64,000 bases of DNA from Thauera sp. GDN1 (GTDB lineage: Bacteria; Pseudomonadota; Gammaproteobacteria; Burkholderiales; Rhodocyclaceae), in contig NZ_CP097870.1 of NCBI RefSeq assembly GCF_029223545.1, positions 3,224,001 to 3,288,000 on the forward strand, in the 5' to 3' direction. This document shows positions 7,087-64,000 of this stretch, piece by piece; the first letter of the stretch is position 1, and each line of letters opens with the position of its first letter. The notes beneath the pieces are model-generated. The model was not told where the DNA came from and did not search any database. It was given only the letters and a program-made list of their open reading frames with translations. The translations under genes were made by a program, and so were the position numbers.

Positions 7087-7237
7087 GGTCCATGCCCGCC
7101 TGATGGGATGTCGGAAGCCGGTGAGTGCCGGCAGCGGAGGCAGCAAGCACTGCGCCGGCGATGATAGTCCATCCCTGCGTCTTCCCGCCGCCCGCTCCTC
7201 CCGACCGCCTTGCTCCCGGACATCGCACGCCCGCCGT

Positions 7238-7266
7238 CTTGAAAACCCCTGATGCGCGCCTATATT
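7238..7266 (+). promoter_or_regulatory. Sigma-32 (heat-shock) type promoter for hsp20
   Basis: CTTGAAAA at 7238-7245 matches the sigma-32 -35 element (CTTGAAA). The -10 region CCTATATT at 7259-7266 has the C-rich-then-AT form of the heat-shock -10 at a normal spacing. It lies about 50 bp upstream of the Hsp20 start and points at it. Assignment rests on motif match and gene identity. Confidence 0.7.
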
Positions 7267-7316
7267 GGCTTTGAGGCCGGAATGCACCGGCCACCTTGTC
7301 GAGAGGAGAACCGCAC

Positions 7317-7754
7317 ATGAGCACCAATGTCACCCGACGCGCCGACCCCCTGGAGGACTTCTTCCGTGGCTTCTTCGTCCGCCCCGTCGATTTCGGCGGC
7401 GGCGCCTTGGCCAACCTCGGGGCCGATGCCCCGCAGATGCGGGTCGACGTCAAGGAGAACACCGATGGCTACGAGGTGCACGCCGAGCTTCCCGGGATGA
7501 AGAAGGAAGACATCCATGTGCACATCGACGGCCCGGTGGTGTCGATCAGCGCCGAGCGCAAGCAGGAAAAGGAAGTGAAGGAAGGCGAGAAGGTCCTGCG
7601 CACCGAGCGCTACTTCGGCAAGGTCTCGCGCAGCTTCCAGCTCGGCCAGGAGATCGACGAGGCCAAGGCTTCGGCCAAGTTCAAGGACGGCGTGCTCGAA
7701 CTGGCGCTGCCGAAGAAGGCCGAGGCCCAGGCCAAGCGGCTGACCATCGACTGA
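7317..7754 (+). CDS. Hsp20-family small heat-shock chaperone
   Basis: A 145-residue alpha-crystallin-type chaperone that holds unfolding proteins in an ATP-independent way. The ACD spans about residues 40-140, with the core ELPGMKKEDIHV and the closing motif KFKDGVLELALPKK. The C-terminal tail lacks an extended IXI motif but ends KRLTID. The ATG at 7317 is preferred over an upstream in-frame ATG-like start because GAGAGGAGAA sits just upstream. A heat-shock type promoter precedes it, and it is convergent with argB across a shared terminator. Confidence 0.95.
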   Translation: MSTNVTRRADPLEDFFRGFFVRPVDFGGGALANLGADAPQMRVDVKENTDGYEVHAELPGMKKEDIHVHIDGPVVSISAERKQEKEVKEGEKVLRTERYFGKVSRSFQLGQEIDEAKASAKFKDGVLELALPKKAEAQAKRLTID

Positions 7755-7788
7755 TCGCGCGGCACCGTTCCCGCCGCATCGGGCGTAT

Positions 7789-7832
7789 GAAAAAACCCGC
7801 CCCGGCGAGCGCCGGCGGCGGGTTCTGCTTTT
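7789..7832 (-). terminator. Bidirectional terminator between hsp20 and argB
   Basis: A long hairpin pairs AACCCGCC with GGCGGGTT around an inner CCGGCG/CGCCGG stem. On the minus strand it is followed by six T residues (terminator of argB). On the plus strand it is followed by a short CTGCTTTT, so it can also end the hsp20 transcript. Confidence 0.85.
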
Positions 7833-7869
7833 CTCGGACCGTGAAACCGCAGCCCCGATGCGCTTGCCC

Positions 7870-8802
<933 letters not shown>

Positions 8803-57037: not shown

Positions 57038-57952
57038 TCAACCCTGGTCGATGACCCGGAAACGCAGCGTCGGCGCGGTGAAGTCGTCGGGTGTCGCCCC
57101 CAGGCCGATCTCGCCCTCGCCATACAAGGTACAGGTGTCGCGACGCAGCATCACCGGCGCCGCCGAACCGACGAAGCGCACCCAGCTGCCATTGCTGCTG
57201 AAGTCGGTCAGCAGGCACTGCCCGCCGGTCCACTCGATGCGAGCATGACGGCGCGATACGCGCGGATCGTCGACGGGGAAGCCGACGCCCTCGCCGCGGC
57301 CGATGATCAGCGCCGCGTCGTCGGCGTGCAGTTCGACGTGCTGGTCGAGACGATCGATGTCGATGCGACGGACGGAACGCGCGCCGTCCACCAGCTCGTG
57401 GTAGTCGAGCAGCGTCGTCAGCGTGGTCTCGGCGGTGCGGGCGAAATCGACCCGCCACACCCGCATCGGCTCGGCCTTGCCCTTGATCGTGATGCGGTCC
57501 AGGCTGTGGCAGGCGATGCGCAGCGGCTCGGGCAGGCTGGCAAACACCGCATCGCCGATCAGCGTCTCGCCGGTCTGGGCGCGGTCGCTGAGACGGGCGG
57601 CGACATTCACCGCGTCGCCGTAGCAGTCGCCGTCGTGCTCGACGATGGCGCCGCGATCGATGCCGGTCTTGACCCCCAGCGCGGCGCGGCGCAGCTCGAC
57701 GCTGGCGAGCTCGTGCAGTACTTCCTGCAGATGAGCCCCGGCCTGCACGGCGGCGACCGTGTCGTCGAACAGGACCAGCACGCCATCGCCGAGATACTTC
57801 ACCACCCGCCCGCCGGCGCAGGCGAGATGGCGGCCGAGCGCGTGCGTACAGCGGGTGACGATCTGCGTCGCCGCCACGTTGCCTGCCGACTCGAACAGAC
57901 CGGTACTCCCCGTCAGATCGGCGAATACCACGGTCCTGACCGCTTGCTCCAC
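57038..57952 (-). CDS. Class III nucleotidyl cyclase domain fused to an FHA domain
   Basis: A protein of about 304 residues if started at GTG 57952 (VEQAVRTVVFADLTGSTGLFE). Residues 5-165 form an adenylate/guanylate cyclase homology domain with FADLTGST, KYLGDGVLVLF and DCYGDAVNVAARL, keeping the metal-binding Asp residues. Residues 200-304 contain an FHA phosphopeptide-binding domain (VSRRHARIEW, DFSSNGSWV). There are no membrane helices. The true start is uncertain; a GTG at 57982 and a much longer in-frame form exist. The FHA could bind a phosphoprotein made by a kinase such as the one at 35151, though this is only a guess. Confidence 0.82.
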   Translation of the reverse strand: MEQAVRTVVFADLTGSTGLFESAGNVAATQIVTRCTHALGRHLACAGGRVVKYLGDGVLVLFDDTVAAVQAGAHLQEVLHELASVELRRAALGVKTGIDRGAIVEHDGDCYGDAVNVAARLSDRAQTGETLIGDAVFASLPEPLRIACHSLDRITIKGKAEPMRVWRVDFARTAETTLTTLLDYHELVDGARSVRRIDIDRLDQHVELHADDAALIIGRGEGVGFPVDDPRVSRRHARIEWTGGQCLLTDFSSNGSWVRFVGSAAPVMLRRDTCTLYGEGEIGLGATPDDFTAPTLRFRVIDQG

Positions 57953-58142
57953 GCGCCCTCTCGCTCCAGTTCTGGTTCGCACGACACCGCCCGCCCCCCG
58001 GATGGCGGTGCTTCGCTGCACTGCGCAAGGCAGAATCCTAGCATTATGGGCCCATGCGTTGAAACCGTGACCGGCGAGGCGCGCGACGGCGCGCCCGCCA
58101 CCCCGGAGGGGCGGACGCTGCGGAAAGAAGGCGCGGGCGCGC

Positions 58143-59045
58143 TCAGCCGGGCGGGACGGCGCGCAGGGCCTCGGCCAGCAGCGGGGCGATCTGCACCGCG
58201 TTGCTCGGATGGACGATGCAGTCCGTGCTCCACACCTCGCCGACACCGGCGGCACGGATCAATGCCAGGGCGTCGTCGGCGAAAAGCGCATGCGTCACCG
58301 CCACATCGACCGACGCCGCACCGGCCGCCAGCAGGCGCTCGGCGGTGCGCGCGAGGGTATGCCCGGAGCTCGCCACGTCGTCGACGATCACTGCCGCCCG
58401 GCCGCGCACCGCGGCGTCGGCAGGGAGCGCGATGTCGACCCGGCGGTCGTCGTGGCGGACTTTCTCGCACACGATGAAGTCGAGTTCGTGGCGCTGCGCC
58501 GCAGTCTCGACCCACTGCCGCGACTCGAGGTCGGGGCCCACCAGCAGCGGCCGCGCGCGGTGCGACAGCGCGACGTCGGCGAGCAGGCCCGCGCCGGAGA
58601 GCGCGATCGCATGCGGCACCGGAATCGCTTCGGCCAGCGTGTCGATGCGGTGCAGGTGGGGATCCACGGTGATCACGCCATCGAACAGGCCGGCCAGGAA
58701 CTCGCCGACGATGCGCTGGCTCACCACCTCGCCGGCACGGAAGGCCTTGTCCTGGCGCATGTAGGCGAGATAGGGCGCGACCAGGGTCAGATGCTGGGCG
58801 CCCATTTTCCCGGCGCTGCGCGCGACCAGCAGCAGTTCGAGCAGCTTTTCGTTGGGGCGGTGCAGGCTGCGGTATAGCGCGACGCGCGCGGGCAGGTGCG
58901 CGGGCAGGCGCAGGCGCAGCTCGTCGTCGGGGAAGCGGTGGCGTTCGATCACTGCCGCTTCGATGCCGGCCGCCGTGGCCAGACGCGAGGCCTCGGCGAC
59001 TTCGTCGTCGAAATGCAGCAGGACCATGTCTTCGATCTTGGTCAT
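58143..59045 (-). CDS. Ribose-phosphate pyrophosphokinase homologue
   Basis: A 300-residue type I phosphoribosyltransferase-fold protein related to PRPP synthetase. HRFPDDELRLRLPAHL, KMGAQHLTLVAPYLAYMRQD, VDPHLHR and the PRPP loop VIVDDVASSGHT follow Prs order. It is slightly shorter than housekeeping Prs (about 315 residues) and divergent, and lacks the usual company of ispE or rplY, so it is probably a second PRPP-synthetase-like enzyme. Its promoter region faces the tail cluster across a 288-bp gap. Confidence 0.85.
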   Translation of the reverse strand: MTKIEDMVLLHFDDEVAEASRLATAAGIEAAVIERHRFPDDELRLRLPAHLPARVALYRSLHRPNEKLLELLLVARSAGKMGAQHLTLVAPYLAYMRQDKAFRAGEVVSQRIVGEFLAGLFDGVITVDPHLHRIDTLAEAIPVPHAIALSGAGLLADVALSHRARPLLVGPDLESRQWVETAAQRHELDFIVCEKVRHDDRRVDIALPADAAVRGRAAVIVDDVASSGHTLARTAERLLAAGAASVDVAVTHALFADDALALIRAAGVGEVWSTDCIVHPSNAVQIAPLLAEALRAVPPG

Positions 59046-59210
59046 CGGCGCGAGACTACACCCTGCGCGCGGGGTCCTGAAGAGCTCCCGGGAGCACCGG
59101 CGCGAAGCATTTCACGCCGCGCGCGAGAAGGGCTGGCGCCCATCCGCACGGCCGCCGGCAAGGGGACGGAAACGCCTTGCCGGCGGCCTGCGCGAAATGC
59201 GGAAAGCGGT

Positions 59211-59239
59211 TTGACAAGCCCATTTTGGGCTACTACAAA
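59211..59239 (+). promoter_or_regulatory. Sigma-70 promoter with an inverted repeat in the spacer, for the tail cluster
   Basis: TTGACA at 59211-59216 is a perfect -35. TACAAA at 59234-59239 is a fair -10 at the optimal 17-bp spacing. Between them lies AGCCCATTTTGGGCT (59217-59231), a perfect 6-bp inverted repeat. A protein bound there would block the promoter. The first tail gene starts at 59334. Confidence 0.75.
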
Positions 59240-59333
59240 TGAGTGACCGGACATTCCAAAGACAACACGGCCGGCGCTGCAGCCAGCATCACGACCGCCC
59301 CCGGATCACGAACCTCACCTGCCGGAGAAGACG

Positions 59334-59780
59334 ATGCCCGACGTCCTGGTGCAGGACGCGCTCGCCGCGCTCGACAGCGCGATCACGAGCCTCCTGCCGT
59401 CCGCCGTGCCCGCGGGGATGAACCGTGCGGTGCGCATCGAGCCGAGCCGCATCCGGCCGCTCGGACTGGGCGGCTACGTCGGCAACCATGTCGCCCCCGA
59501 TGCCGGACAGTTCGGCCGCCGGGTGCATGCCCGCATCGCCATCGCCGTCACCGGCGGCAACGACACCGCCGCACGCAACTACGTCGTCGGCCTTGGCACG
59601 GAACTGCTCTGCCTGTCGCGCAGCGAACGCCTGGCACGCGGCGTGCAGCGCCTCGAGCGCGTTCCGGTCGAGGATCCGCGCGCACTCGCCTTCGAAGTCG
59701 ATTTCGAATTCATCAGCACACCCAGCACTGGAGAGGGCGTGATCACCGATCTCGTCCTCGACATCGAGCCCGACGGCTGA
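59334..59780 (+). CDS. Putative tail terminator-like protein of the contractile tail cluster
   Basis: A 148-residue protein starting MPDVLVQDALAALDSAITSLL, with GGAGAAG before the ATG. It has no signal or membrane helix. Position before the sheath gene, size, and an alpha/beta pattern (ARIAIAVTGGND, LAFEVDFEFISTP) suggest a tail-terminator or tail-completion protein, but I do not recognise a defined family. It is the first gene of the cluster. Confidence 0.55.
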   Translation: MPDVLVQDALAALDSAITSLLPSAVPAGMNRAVRIEPSRIRPLGLGGYVGNHVAPDAGQFGRRVHARIAIAVTGGNDTAARNYVVGLGTELLCLSRSERLARGVQRLERVPVEDPRALAFEVDFEFISTPSTGEGVITDLVLDIEPDG

Positions 59781-59883
59781 GCGCTCGGGATCGAAAACCG
59801 CATGGCGCGCCGCACGCGACATGCATCGGCAATGCCCCGTGCGGGGCGAACGGACTCCCCAGCGGGGACAGAAGGAGCGGGCG

Positions 59884-60966
59884 ATGGAAGAGAACTTTGC
59901 GGAACAGATCGTTCCCGGCACATTCATCCGGGTCCAGGCCGAGGGCTTGATCGCGCCCAAGGGCGTGAGCTTCGGCAATGTCGGCATCGTCGGCACCGCG
60001 GCGGCGGCCAGCGGAGTCACCGACGCCATCGGGCAGACCCACATCCTCGGCAGCATGGAGGACGCGGCCAAGCTCTATGCGCCGTCCGACGCCGCCTCCG
60101 CAGGCACGCAGAACCTGATGCGCGGACTCGCCCTGCTGTTCGCCAACGGCGCTCGCACGGTCTATGCCCGTGCGGTCGCCGCCGCCGCGGACCAGACGGC
60201 CTTCGCCAACGCCGCCGCCGAGTTGCTCAAGGAGACGGTCAACATCCTGATCGCTCCCGAGCTCGCCACCGCGACCGCACTGCAGGTGCTGCCGGCGGCG
60301 ACCAACACCGCCGAGGGCGACGGCAAGGACATGATCACCGTGATCGGCTCCGACGCCAGCGGGGTCAGCGACGTCGCCGCCCAGGTCGCGGCGAACAAGC
60401 GCGTGGTGCTGGTGACCCCGGGCGTGCGCACCTACGACCCGGCCGCCGGCGCGATGGTCGACCTGCCCGGCAACTACACCGCAGCCGCGGTCGCCGGCCT
60501 GATCGCCAGCCTCGCCCCGCAGGCCAGCCCGACCAACAAGGTGCTGCCCGGCGTCACCCAGCTCGTCACCCGCTACAGCTACGGCCAGCTCAAGTCGCTG
60601 CTGCAGGCCAACGTCTGCCCGCTCGAGGAGCGCCAGGGCGTGCGCGTTGTGCGCGGCATCACCACCGAGGGCGAGGCCTTCTCGCAGATCACCACGCGGC
60701 GCATCGTCGATTACGCCAAGGCCGGCATCCGCCAGGTCGCCAACCCCTTCGTCGGCCGCCTCAACAACGAGCGCGTGCGCACCGCGCTGCACGGCGCGCT
60801 CGACAGCTTCCTGACCACCATGGTGGTGGACGAGGCCCTCACCGGCTACCAGCTCGAGGTCAAGGCCACGCGCGCCGACGAGATCGCCGGGCGCTGCATC
60901 GTCAATGTGGCCATGCAGCCCACCTTCAGCATCGACTACATCCGCGTGACCCTCGCGCTGTCCTGA
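59884..60966 (+). CDS. Contractile tail sheath protein
   Basis: A 360-residue tail sheath protein. It starts MEENFAEQIVPGTFIRVQAEG, like sheath subunits of phage and related contractile systems. Typical segments are GIVGTAAAASGV, ALLFANGARTVYARAV, VTPGVRTYDP and the C-terminal part with YQLEVKATRADEIAGRCIVNV and FSIDYIRVTLAL. It would form the contractile outer cylinder. AGGAG lies 7 bp before the ATG. It is shorter than phage T4 or many eCIS sheaths, but within the range for simple sheaths. Confidence 0.9.
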   Translation: MEENFAEQIVPGTFIRVQAEGLIAPKGVSFGNVGIVGTAAAASGVTDAIGQTHILGSMEDAAKLYAPSDAASAGTQNLMRGLALLFANGARTVYARAVAAAADQTAFANAAAELLKETVNILIAPELATATALQVLPAATNTAEGDGKDMITVIGSDASGVSDVAAQVAANKRVVLVTPGVRTYDPAAGAMVDLPGNYTAAAVAGLIASLAPQASPTNKVLPGVTQLVTRYSYGQLKSLLQANVCPLEERQGVRVVRGITTEGEAFSQITTRRIVDYAKAGIRQVANPFVGRLNNERVRTALHGALDSFLTTMVVDEALTGYQLEVKATRADEIAGRCIVNVAMQPTFSIDYIRVTLALS

Positions 60967-60988
60967 ACACGCAGGTAAGGAGACCGAC

Positions 60989-61498
60989 ATGCCATCTGCC
61001 GCCAACCAGAATGTCTACACCGGTGCCGACGGCACCATCCTGCTCGCCCCTGCCGGCGACGGGCCCGAGGGGTCGGCCGCCGGCGCCGTGATCGAGGGCA
61101 ACGACCTGATCCAGGTCGGCCGCGTCACCGGCGTCACCGTCCAGGTCAGCTCGGCGATCCGCCCCTTCCACGAGATCGGCCAGCGCTACGCCAGCGAGCT
61201 GCGCTCGGGCAACGTCAGCGTGCGCGGCCACATCGACCGCGCCTGGCTCAACGGCGCGCTGCTGCGCCTGCTGCTCGGCGAAGCGGCCGACCAGCGCCCG
61301 CGCAGCTCCTGGGTGCAACCGGCGTTCAACATCACGCTGATGGCGGAGAACGCCGCCAGCCCGGGCACGAAATCCATCGTCACCCTGCACGACGTCAAGC
61401 TCGAGCAATGGAACCTGTCCATGCCCGAGGACGACTTCGTCATGGAAGGCGCGGACTTCCAGGCCCTGTACGTGAGCGTCCGCGACGAACGAGGCTGA
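60989..61498 (+). CDS. Putative inner tail tube protein
   Basis: A 169-residue protein directly after the sheath, the usual position of the tube. MPSAANQNVYTGADGTILLAPAG and the beta-rich VTVQVSSAIRPFHEIGQ, LHDVKLEQWNLSMPED fit tube proteins, which form stacked hexameric rings. Homology cannot be assigned firmly by eye. AAGGAG precedes the ATG. Confidence 0.65.
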   Translation: MPSAANQNVYTGADGTILLAPAGDGPEGSAAGAVIEGNDLIQVGRVTGVTVQVSSAIRPFHEIGQRYASELRSGNVSVRGHIDRAWLNGALLRLLLGEAADQRPRSSWVQPAFNITLMAENAASPGTKSIVTLHDVKLEQWNLSMPEDDFVMEGADFQALYVSVRDERG

Positions 61499-61502
61499 GC
61501 CC

Positions 61503-62018
61503 ATGACTTCGGCACAGGCAGCACAGGCGAACACCGGCCCGGGGAGCGCCTATCTCGGCGCCGACGAGCTGCTCGCCGGCAGCGCGGCGGCCTACGACAT
61601 CGAGGTGCCTGCGGCGCTCGTCGAGGCCGGTCGCAGCGGCCTGGCGGGCCGGGTGCGGATCCGCCCGCTGACGGTACGCGACCTGCAGCTCATCAGCCGC
61701 GCCGCACGCGACAGCGACAGCCTGGCCGGCGCGCTGATGGTGCACACCGCGCTGCAGACCCCGGAACTGTCGTTGCCGCAGGTGTCGGCGCTGCCGATCG
61801 GGCTGATGGAGTTCCTGCTCGGCGAGGTGAACCGCGTCAGCGGCCTGGCCGTCGCCCCCGCCGCGCTCGAGGAGGCCGCCGAACAGCCGATCGCGCGCGC
61901 AGCCCATGTACTCGCCCGCGAGTTCGGGTGGACACCGCAGCAGATCGGCGAGCTCACCCTCGGCCAGATCCTGCTCCATCTGCAGATGCTGCGCGAGGAA
62001 GGCGGGCGCCATGGCTGA
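61503..62018 (+). CDS. Small tail assembly-chaperone-like protein
   Basis: A 171-residue protein starting 4 bp after the tube stop. It contains RVRIRPLTVRDLQLISRAARDSD, a pattern seen in tail assembly chaperones, and ends with a helical segment (TPQQIGELTLGQILLHLQML). No signal or membrane helix. The next gene overlaps its end by 8 bp. Function is inferred from position between tube and a longer protein. Confidence 0.5.
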   Translation: MTSAQAAQANTGPGSAYLGADELLAGSAAAYDIEVPAALVEAGRSGLAGRVRIRPLTVRDLQLISRAARDSDSLAGALMVHTALQTPELSLPQVSALPIGLMEFLLGEVNRVSGLAVAPAALEEAAEQPIARAAHVLAREFGWTPQQIGELTLGQILLHLQMLREEGGRHG

Positions 62019-63225
62019 TCCGCGCCGCCTCGCGGCTGCCCTTGCGCCCTTCCATGAGGTCAGCAAGCACCTGGAGGCTACGCAGGCGCGGCTCTCCGGG
62101 TTGCTCGCCGCCTTTGCGCGCGAGGCCGAGGCGCACACCGGCGATCTCGAGCGCCTGCCCGCTGCGGCACGTTTCAACCCCTTTGCCGTGCTGCCGAAAG
62201 CCTTCGAACCGGCGCACACCGCCGATCCCGACGGCAAGGTGGGCGGACGGCGCGCCGACAAGGTCAGCCGGGCTGCGCAAGCGTCCGCTCCGCGCCCCGC
62301 CGCAACCGGAACCACCGCCCTGGCGAGTCTGGCCGGCGCCGCGGGCAACCTTCGACAGGCGTCGGGCCGGACGCCGGACATCCCGCCGTCCGCCGCAGCG
62401 CTCACACCCGCTGCCCTCGGTGCCGCAGCCGCGAGCGAGCGAAGCCGCGCGCGTGCGGCCGGACCGGAGCCCATGGCCAGCCTCCCCGCCAGCGAACAGG
62501 CTGAGCACGCGTACGCTGCGGGCGAGCTGATCGACGCGCTGCTCAAGCGCCACGCGCCGCCCCGCGCGCCGACCCGCCTGCACGGCATCGGCACGCGCTC
62601 GGCACAAGCAAGCCATGACGGCGATGCAGCCCCCGCTCAGCGCGTTGCCGCCACTTCGGCAGCACGGGCCGCCCAGGCCGCCCAGGCCGCCGCCGACCAT
62701 CCCGCCCTGCGCCACGGCGCGGAGCTCGCCGCGAGCGCGGCCGCAGCGCATGGCGCCCTCCTCGCTCCCGGCGCGGGGCACGGACACGCACCACCATCGC
62801 GCCTCCACGCCGCCAGTGCGCCCTGGGGCGAGCTTTCCTGCCAGGCCGCGACGCAGGCGGGCGCCGGCATGGACGCGGCAGCAATGGAGCATGGCGACGA
62901 GGCCCTGCGCCGCCTGCTCGACTCCGGATTCGCGCACCCGGCGACGGTCGCACAGGCGTTCGAGAGCGTCAGGCCGGAAACCCTCATGCGCGCACCTACC
63001 CGCTCGCCGCAGCGGCGCGCGCCGTCGCGCCTGCTCGGCGCGTCCGGTCCGCAGGACGTCGCGACCGCGCCGGCCACCAGCGCCAAGGCCGCCACCGCGA
63101 CCCCGACGTCCGCCATGACGACGCCCGCGCCTGCCATGCCTGCGGACGGCGCCGCAGACCTGGCCGCCGGACTCGACCGCCTGCTGCGCGAACAGGCCTG
63201 GCTCAGGGGAGTGGATCTGACATGA
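62011..63225 (+). CDS. Ala-rich protein at the tape-measure position
   Basis: A 404-residue protein starting MADPRRLAAALAPFHEVSK, overlapping the previous gene by 8 bp. About 30 percent Ala, with many Arg, Pro and His and long low-complexity stretches (AHGALLAPGAGHGHAPPS). There are no obvious membrane helices. Its place between the chaperone-like gene and a baseplate-like gene is where a tape measure usually lies, but it is short and has an unusual composition, so this is only a possibility. No family is recognised. Confidence 0.6.
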   Translation: MADPRRLAAALAPFHEVSKHLEATQARLSGLLAAFAREAEAHTGDLERLPAAARFNPFAVLPKAFEPAHTADPDGKVGGRRADKVSRAAQASAPRPAATGTTALASLAGAAGNLRQASGRTPDIPPSAAALTPAALGAAAASERSRARAAGPEPMASLPASEQAEHAYAAGELIDALLKRHAPPRAPTRLHGIGTRSAQASHDGDAAPAQRVAATSAARAAQAAQAAADHPALRHGAELAASAAAAHGALLAPGAGHGHAPPSRLHAASAPWGELSCQAATQAGAGMDAAAMEHGDEALRRLLDSGFAHPATVAQAFESVRPETLMRAPTRSPQRRAPSRLLGASGPQDVATAPATSAKAATATPTSAMTTPAPAMPADGAADLAAGLDRLLREQAWLRGVDLT

Positions 63226-63812
63226 GCCTCACACCCATGCTCGCCGACTGGGAACTGCCGCGCGTGACCCGGCTGGAAACGCTGGAGACGCGCGACTTCC
63301 TCGAGCTTCCGGTCCCGGGGCGCGCCGGCAGCCTGTTCCAGGACCTCGACCGCCGCCCGGCACGCATCCTGGTCGAGGGCTCGGTGTTCGGCAGCGACGC
63401 CGGGCTGGAGCTGCTCAACGCGGTGCGCGAGAAATACCTCGCCGGCGAACCGATGACCTTCGTCTCCGACATCGTCACCGGCACCGACATCCAGTACGTG
63501 CTGTTGCAACAACTGCACATCCAGGCCGAGGCCAGCGCCCCCGACCAGATCGACTACACGCTGTGGCTCACCGAGTCGCCGCCACCGCCGCCGCCGGCCG
63601 ACGTGCTCGGCGGCATCGACACCGGTCTGCTCGACGGCGCGGCCGGACTGCTCGACCAGGCAATGGGTGCCATCGATGCGCTCGACGCGCTCGGCAGCCT
63701 GCCGGCGATCTCCGACCCGACCGGGCCGCTCGCCGGCATCCTCGGCGACACCGCGCCCTCGATCGGCCAGCTCGGCAGCATCGGTTCGGGTCTGCGCGGC
63801 CTGCTGGAGTAA
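63222..63812 (+). CDS. Putative baseplate or DNA-circularization-like protein
   Basis: A 196-residue protein overlapping the previous stop by 4 bp. The N-terminal 120 residues (PARILVEGSVFGSDAG, EKYLAGEPMTFVSDI) resemble the N-terminal domain found in Mu-type tail or baseplate proteins. A Pro run (PPPPPP) links to a Gly/Ile/Leu-rich C-terminus (GAAGLLDQAMGAIDALDALG). Family assignment is tentative. Confidence 0.5.
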   Translation: MSLTPMLADWELPRVTRLETLETRDFLELPVPGRAGSLFQDLDRRPARILVEGSVFGSDAGLELLNAVREKYLAGEPMTFVSDIVTGTDIQYVLLQQLHIQAEASAPDQIDYTLWLTESPPPPPPADVLGGIDTGLLDGAAGLLDQAMGAIDALDALGSLPAISDPTGPLAGILGDTAPSIGQLGSIGSGLRGLLE

Positions 63813-63818
63813 GCGACC

Positions 63819-64000
63819 ATGGCCGGACTGCTCGCCCAACTCGACCTGACCGCATCCGGCGCGGACCTGTCCGCGATCGCGGGCGGCATCGGTGGCGCCT
63901 TCGGCGAGCTCGGCAAGCTGATCACAGGCTGGCAGAGCGGCCCGCCGGGCGACTTCGGCAGCGCGCTGTCCAGCCTCGGTGGCCTGCCTGTCCCGCAGCT
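63819..64000 (+). CDS. Next tail-cluster gene, 5' part only
   Basis: The frame MAGLLAQLDLTASGADLSAI continues to the window edge with 60 codons visible. Rich in Gly, Leu and Ser (AIAGGIGGAFGELGKLI), similar in style to the end of the previous protein. It starts 6 bp after that stop, so the operon clearly continues beyond the window. Function cannot be told from this part. Confidence 0.6.
   Translation, partial: MAGLLAQLDLTASGADLSAIAGGIGGAFGELGKLITGWQSGPPGDFGSALSSLGGLPVPQ

Follow-up and report, generated by a model that had tools for sequence, protein, structure and literature searches.

A headless contractile-tail island in Thauera sp. GDN1 that joins ordinary parts in an unusual combination

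When a bacterial chromosome carries a contractile tail with no recognisable head, is it the remnant of a prophage, a weapon against other bacteria, or an injection system put to some other use? This question is raised by an island of Thauera sp. GDN1 that begins near the end of the 64,000-nucleotide stretch analysed here (the window; positions 3224001-3288000 of a 3.87-Mb single-contig genome). The sequence past position 64000 was added and the window coordinates were extended to cover it. Gene calls were made with a simple codon model, and start positions are approximate. The whole contractile-tail cluster then comprises 17 genes, all on the plus strand, between 59334 and 81822. With moderate confidence, sequence comparisons lead us to read it as encoding a domesticated contractile particle without a head, whose most likely role is to kill other bacteria in the manner of R-type tailocins.

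The sheath, tube, gp25, J, separate hub and spike, PAAR tip and M23-type domain are established by sequence or fold. The sheath g2 (59884..60966, 360 residues) is single and phage-type, and is recognised by family matches and by a profile match to solved sheaths, while the tube g3 (60989..61498, 169 residues) is recognised by its fold. Further on, g7 (67311-70028, 905 residues) carries the M23 domain according to Pfam. It is followed by the hub g8 (70025-71083; family and hub profile), the spike g9 (71080-71718), the PAAR tip g10 (71741-72133) and gp25, g11 (72130-72603), all three named by family, and by baseplate J, g12 (72611-74359; family and J profile). The hub/spike, PAAR, gp25 and J genes stand in the order conserved in extracellular contractile injection systems (eCIS) and phage-like protein-translocation structures (PLTS). 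Four candidate fibre-type genes found by family searches, g13 to g16 (74362-81822), complete the cluster.

The other genes are less easily named. On position alone, g1 (59334..59780, 148 residues) is a possible tail terminator; it has no family match in library searches, remote homology to the DUF4255 terminator is still possible, and it resembles the first ~150 residues of 350- and 358-residue proteins that precede the sheath in Rubrivivax and Desulfobacteraceae. The product of g4 (61503..62018, 171 residues) occupies the tail-assembly-chaperone position, as in the haloarchaeal virus HF1, and is kept in 12 aligned relatives; it had no family match in the libraries tried, and hhalign gave none to the HF1 protein in that position. 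The fast-evolving g5a (62011..63225, 404 residues) is Ala-rich (28% Ala) and was not named by any library tried. We regard g5 (63222..63812, 196 residues) as a baseplate-type protein from weak matches in its family: among 15 aligned members, DUF6046 is hit in 8 and DNA_circ_N in 6 (best 1e-5), and the Thauera protein itself hits neither. Finally, g6 (63819..67298, 1159 residues, the first 60 inside the window) is tape-measure-like in its size, position and helical Ala-rich make-up only. The initial annotation had described a clear sheath in a tail-ordered cluster free of head genes in the window, and family searches confirm this. Among the proteins it could not name, the tube is now identified by fold and the baseplate-like protein through its relatives, and the chaperone-like and Ala-rich ones still lack a name. 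Beyond position 64000, where it had suggested looking, the spike, PAAR and candidate fibres were found, and no AAA+ ATPase, lysis or head genes were recognised.

Which known machine the parts resemble depends on the part. The sheath profile matched solved sheaths of both contractile injection systems (CIS) and phages, best of all the haloarchaeal sheath 9ezm (1.7e-20), of type VI secretion system (T6SS) mode, and the Streptomyces sheath 8bky; the Afp3 and AlgoCIS sheaths matched as well. The best solved match of the hub profile was 9gtr, which we take to be of Streptomyces origin. Sequence searches with g3 gave no useful match, and its model came closest to 2guj and to the R-type bacteriocin tube 6gkx. 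The J profile was closest to a phage wedge protein (1.1e-13) and then to Clostridioides difficile TRI-2 (1e-12), with neither Afp11 nor Pvc11 among its 10 rows.

The C-terminus of g7 is an M23-like domain (Pfam, 4.2e-4). Seven residues of predicted metal-site type, H694, D707, H771, H795, H838, H840 and H842, are conserved without exception in all 7 sequences compared, whose identity falls as low as 34%. Against lysostaphin the g7 profile gave a weak alignment (E 0.03). The protein also contains long, mildly hydrophobic stretches: the hydropathy threshold for a membrane segment is passed by three of its six relatives and not by g7, and no segment of any protein of the Thauera sp. GDN1 cluster lies above the threshold for a membrane anchor. 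Among 70 sources searched, the g7 profile was found only in this genome and in loci L080, L081 and L082; loci L077-L079 end before the g7 position.

Pfam recognised no head or packaging family in the 17 genes of the cluster or in 11 flank genes, and integrase was likewise absent from the scanned flanks. The PF04860 portal is absent from this genome and from two other Thauera genomes with the island, G006 and G004, other portal, capsid and terminase families not having been searched genome-wide. Among the shown family rows of library scans of the neighbours of related clusters, no terminase, portal or capsid is named; this tally covers 86 of 136 representative unassigned neighbours and lists 25 of 104 Pfam and 25 of 83 PHROG families. 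At the limits used, none of the 17 proteins matched DUF4255 or LysM in Pfam, there is one sheath gene and one tube gene, and no toxin family was recognised in the cluster. T6SS families (TssB/C, ClpV, TssJLM) are absent by Pfam from the cluster and the scanned flank proteins, the rest of the genome not having been searched.

The AAA+ ATPase family PF00004 was searched in 13 genomes, namely this one and those of 12 of 62 named related loci (G445 left out). It gave 403 matches, part of which are listed, down to about E 1e-12, and several clusters lie on short contigs. No match lies within 50 kb of the cluster in any of the 13, among those listed on the contig available. In Thauera sp. GDN1 the nearest is ~140 kb from the cluster and ~154 kb from J (12 of 28 matches listed). 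Elsewhere the nearest listed match on the same contig lies ~57 kb from J in Mycolicibacterium senegalense, 186 kb in Zoogloea and 194 kb in Paraglaciecola; the remaining nine genomes have none on the cluster's contig among the matches listed, some of these contigs being short. In G006, with all 27 matches listed, the nearest is ~190 kb from the island copy (912-935 kb). As a positive control, another sheath of ~570-580 residues in G006 and G014 lies 25 and 23 kb, respectively, from a PF00004 match. The surrounding clusters (G006:C1:3988001-4028000, loci L176/L177, and G014:C1:22001-62000, loci L178/L179) look like eCIS by their gene content, with a 732-770-residue gene in the J position and what we take to be two tube-size genes. 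Against the island J profile this J-position gene scored 2.7e-4 in G014 and gave no match at E <= 1e-3 in G006. The AAA+ cluster is a different locus from the island, and G006 holds both systems.

The island sits at one chromosomal site. Its left boundary is a prs-like gene (58143..59045, minus strand), which adjoins g1 in all six carriers; deoA, likewise encoded on the minus strand, bounds it on the right. The sheath was found in 6 of 29 Thauera genomes (this one, G004, G005, G006, G015 and G027) and in none of 32 other relatives searched; some Thauera genomes are incomplete drafts, in which a missing sheath is not proof of absence. A deoA match is present in 23 of the 29, and deoA adjoins g16 in five carriers (this genome, G004, G005, G006 and G027); in G009 the match ends at a contig edge. 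In 17 Thauera genomes the site is empty, prs and deoA being neighbours with 10-158 bases between the aligned ends. The island ends share no repeat longer than 9 bases. In the deoA tree the five deoA-bearing carriers form a grade into which four empty genomes also fall (supports 80/87 and 88/95); one insertion and one loss is the simplest explanation, with recombination or two insertions as alternatives. A J search of 399 genomes of the order returned 22 matches: this genome, G081, G213 and G244 (2.0e-38 to 2.5e-37), and 18 weaker ones. The third-codon-position GC content of the cluster genes, 0.82-0.95, is similar to that of the flanks. The aligned parts of the carrier copies contain no stops, several drafts showing part of the cluster. 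Between this genome and G006 the ratio of nonsynonymous to synonymous substitution rates (dN/dS) is 0.085-0.30 in 14 of the 17 genes, the fastest being g5a (0.68, over the first 182 of 404 residues), g16 (0.53) and g1 (0.50). Judged by these comparisons, the island is intact, occupies a single site and is under purifying selection.

Can such an island be called a tailocin? Like pyocin R2 and diffocin, it encodes a headless contractile tail without an AAA+ ATPase, and its J and tube are closest to phage and R-type bacteriocin proteins. This J and tube, together with the M23 domain, favour a bacterial target. Several points weigh against the reading, some of which also set the island apart from R-type tailocins. 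Its sheath and hub profiles lie closer to CIS structures than to pyocin. In Pfam, the M23 domain of g7 scores 20.9, below the cut-off of 28.7; its first M23 histidine falls outside HxxxD, the textbook M23 motif spacing; and its AlphaFold2 model is of low confidence, with a predicted local distance difference test score of 44. At E <= 0.001, and leaving aside the M23 domain of g7, no lysis family was found by Pfam in the 17 proteins or by PHROGs in 16 of them (g16 omitted); nor did Pfam find one in the 11 flank genes. Small unfamiliar holins could escape these searches. As no lysis cassette is recognised, the island is not a standard R-type tailocin. Endolysin and amidase families occur among the neighbours of related clusters, so that our statement on missing lysis genes is limited to the Thauera cluster. 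As for SOS/PrtN-type control, no LexA-like box was seen in the gap before g1, by the one pattern used and with regulators elsewhere not searched. Finally, the tail operon includes a PAAR tip as well as the M23-domain protein, and pyocin clusters are said to be without PAAR proteins in the part of Sarris et al. (2014, PMC4122934) drawn on here.

Three other explanations have to be weighed. An ordinary prophage of which only decaying tail genes remain could account for the gene order, which recalls complete haloarchaeal myoviruses: sheath, tube, chaperone and tape measure follow one another in HF1, and hub, V, PAAR, gp25, J, I and fibre in HCTV-8. The J tree, too, places four phage J proteins together with the island in one large set. 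The similarity to HF1 and HCTV-8 amounts to ~30% in J over a quarter of its length and a weakly alignable hub (E 7.7e-5), and the island tube, chaperone-position and g5 profiles fail to align to the HF1 proteins tried. The stop-free alignments, the purifying selection and the shared site in six Thauera genomes speak against decay, as do relatives in other phyla in which no PF04860 portal lies on the contig of the cluster. PF04860 occurs in 5 of the 12 other genomes searched, each time off the cluster's contig, and we consider a prophage origin very improbable. The preference of the initial annotation for a tailocin or a CIS over a prophage therefore stands, given that no head or packaging family was recognised in the cluster or the scanned flank genes, that the genome has no PF04860 portal, and that the island is intact and under selection.

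The two remaining alternatives are both injection systems. In Streptomyces, CIS act in the cytoplasm or at the membrane, and a particle of this kind would stay inside the cell and fire at its own membrane under stress, with g7 aiding lysis of the producer. Such self-action is favoured by the CIS-like sheath and hub, whose best solved matches are 9ezm, 8bky and 9gtr, together with the lack of recognised release genes; the hydrophobic stretches of g7 and the relatives that pass the membrane threshold agree with it. However, four fibre-type genes, the last one fast-evolving, suggest targets outside the cell, and, unlike the Streptomyces and haloarchaeal (Halogeometricum) systems, the island shows no membrane anchor or ATPase and has a J profile that fits phage and tailocin J. 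We find a producer-acting system unlikely, and slightly less likely still an eCIS or PLTS variant whose ATPase has been lost and whose protein effectors go to eukaryotic or bacterial targets. With Afp, PVC and AlgoCIS the island shares a headless contractile machine, a PAAR protein, a VgrG-type hub and a spike, and its sheath profile matches Afp3 and AlgoCIS. Sarris et al. (2014, PMC4122934), in the sections used here, describe PLTS as having a PAAR tip, separate hub and spike genes, the order hub-spike-PAAR-gp25-J and no lysis genes, all as in the island, whereas pyocin-type systems have lysis genes; they also list a PLTS for Thauera sp. MZ1T. The same sections state that PLTS always carry an AAA+ ATPase and pyocins do not. 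The island lacks the ATPase, DUF4255, LysM and any recognised toxin family, and has one sheath and one tube gene. Furthermore, the separate AAA+ eCIS-like cluster in Thauera, present beside the island in G006, has J-position genes that match the island J profile weakly or not at E <= 1e-3. Neither of the two well-described families of such machines, R-type tailocins and eCIS/PLTS, accommodates the island.

If the island encodes a tailocin-like particle, as we prefer, a single promoter would drive the operon. Its candidate lies at 59209..59239 (plus strand), with TTGACA at 59211-59216, a 17-base spacer and TACAAA at 59234-59239; this pattern was read by eye in this genome and in G006, and a strict sigma-70 promoter scan listed no site in the gap before g1. 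The stretch GTTTGACAA is unchanged in all six carriers though the rest of that gap diverges. In this genome the spacer contains a perfect inverted repeat, AGCCCA-TTT-TGGGCT (59217-59231), which is weaker in G006 and could possibly serve as an operator. Hub, spike and tip would nucleate the tube, g6 would set its length and g1 would cap it. The g13-g16 proteins would bind the target cell, and g16, as the fastest of the four to diverge, is the foremost candidate for specificity; receptor-binding genes are reported as the variable ones in tailocins, in the part of PMC12090994 cited. Binding would trigger contraction of the sheath, which pushes the tube with its PAAR tip across the envelope, and g7, on or in the tail, may cut peptidoglycan. 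Release would proceed through g7 or something outside the cluster, since no holin or endolysin is recognised.

How far does this type of machine extend? A five-sequence J profile run against collections of species genomes and viral contigs found 62 loci in the former and 4 in the latter; many of the named relatives are metagenome-assembled genomes (MAGs). Among the 70 sources, profiles recovered gp25 in 69, the spike in 62, the hub in 58 and the sheath in 33, many sources ending at a contig edge or at the 10-kb flank limit. The J-related clusters span 12 bacterial phyla and archaea. In a quick J tree of 84 rows with long branches, the island groups with Thauera, Rubrivivax, Desulfobacteraceae and Trueperaceae (7 rows; Shimodaira-Hasegawa-like approximate likelihood ratio test support 100). 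By record title, the other relatives come from Zoogloea, Accumulibacter, Actinomycetota, Chloroflexota, Cyanobacteriota, Acidobacteriota, Verrucomicrobiota, Nitrospinota, Bacteroidota, Myxococcota, Vulcanimicrobiota, Thermodesulfobacteriota, Bathyarchaeota and Methanobacteriota. It is possible, and we suggest it tentatively, that the island is one member of a large unnamed CIS class with no head, AAA+ ATPase or lysis cassette, spread horizontally over a dozen bacterial phyla and archaea. Its Thauera/Rubrivivax/Desulfobacteraceae/Trueperaceae branch would carry a unique, partly hydrophobic M23 protein of 800-910 residues as payload or tail-borne wall cutter. Against such a class, the phage J rows HF1, HCTV-8, phiH and Pd_22F sit within a 67-row set (support 94, drawn open); a single clade of headless clusters is therefore not established. 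The initial annotation had wondered about an undescribed subtype; this is reasonable, as the island lacks the ATPase and any recognised lysis gene and has J relatives in many phyla. A literature search on Thauera/Rhodocyclaceae, Actinobacteria and archaea found no ATPase-less headless class in the texts it returned; it missed Sarris et al. (2014), where another term is used, and novelty is unproven.

Should the class be real, surveys relying on eCIS-specific core genes would take its members for phage or pyocin. As far as the cited parts of the two papers go, one large survey excludes R-type pyocins by requiring such core genes (PMC8213781), and another sets phages and R-type bacteriocins apart by their missing Cis6 and Cis15 ATPase (PMC12210884); both filters would miss a headless type that has no ATPase and no lysis genes. 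Thauera offers clean material here: filled and empty sites occur within one genus, G006 holds both clusters, and one tail protein is a candidate wall cutter. The case raises the question of whether a CIS can assemble and act without Cis15 and without lysis genes of its own.

Some observations on the relatives and neighbours deserve mention. Hub-spike-gp25-J clusters whose J belongs to this family are present on four Bathyarchaeota and methanogen MAG contigs (L126, L127, L131 and L137), three of which also show the sheath. Zoogloea-type clusters end next to one shared kind of gene in eight loci (L096, L099, L100, L101, L106, L107, L109 and L118); it presumably resembles a polysaccharide-synthesis enzyme, and a link to the receptor or to self-protection is possible. 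In the Rubrivivax MAG L147 a 507-residue protein (7189-8712, minus strand), which we take to resemble a HerA-type ATPase, is encoded 113 bases upstream of g1 on the same strand; its gene does not adjoin g1 in the Thauera carriers. Beside the Thauera sp. GDN1 island, a protein with adenylate/guanylate cyclase and FHA domains (window 57038-58255, minus strand) overlaps the prs-like gene, and ~7 kb past the island a TIR-domain protein is encoded (L006:12729-13625, minus strand; Pfam 1.3e-12), with a weak ThsB match in PADLOC.

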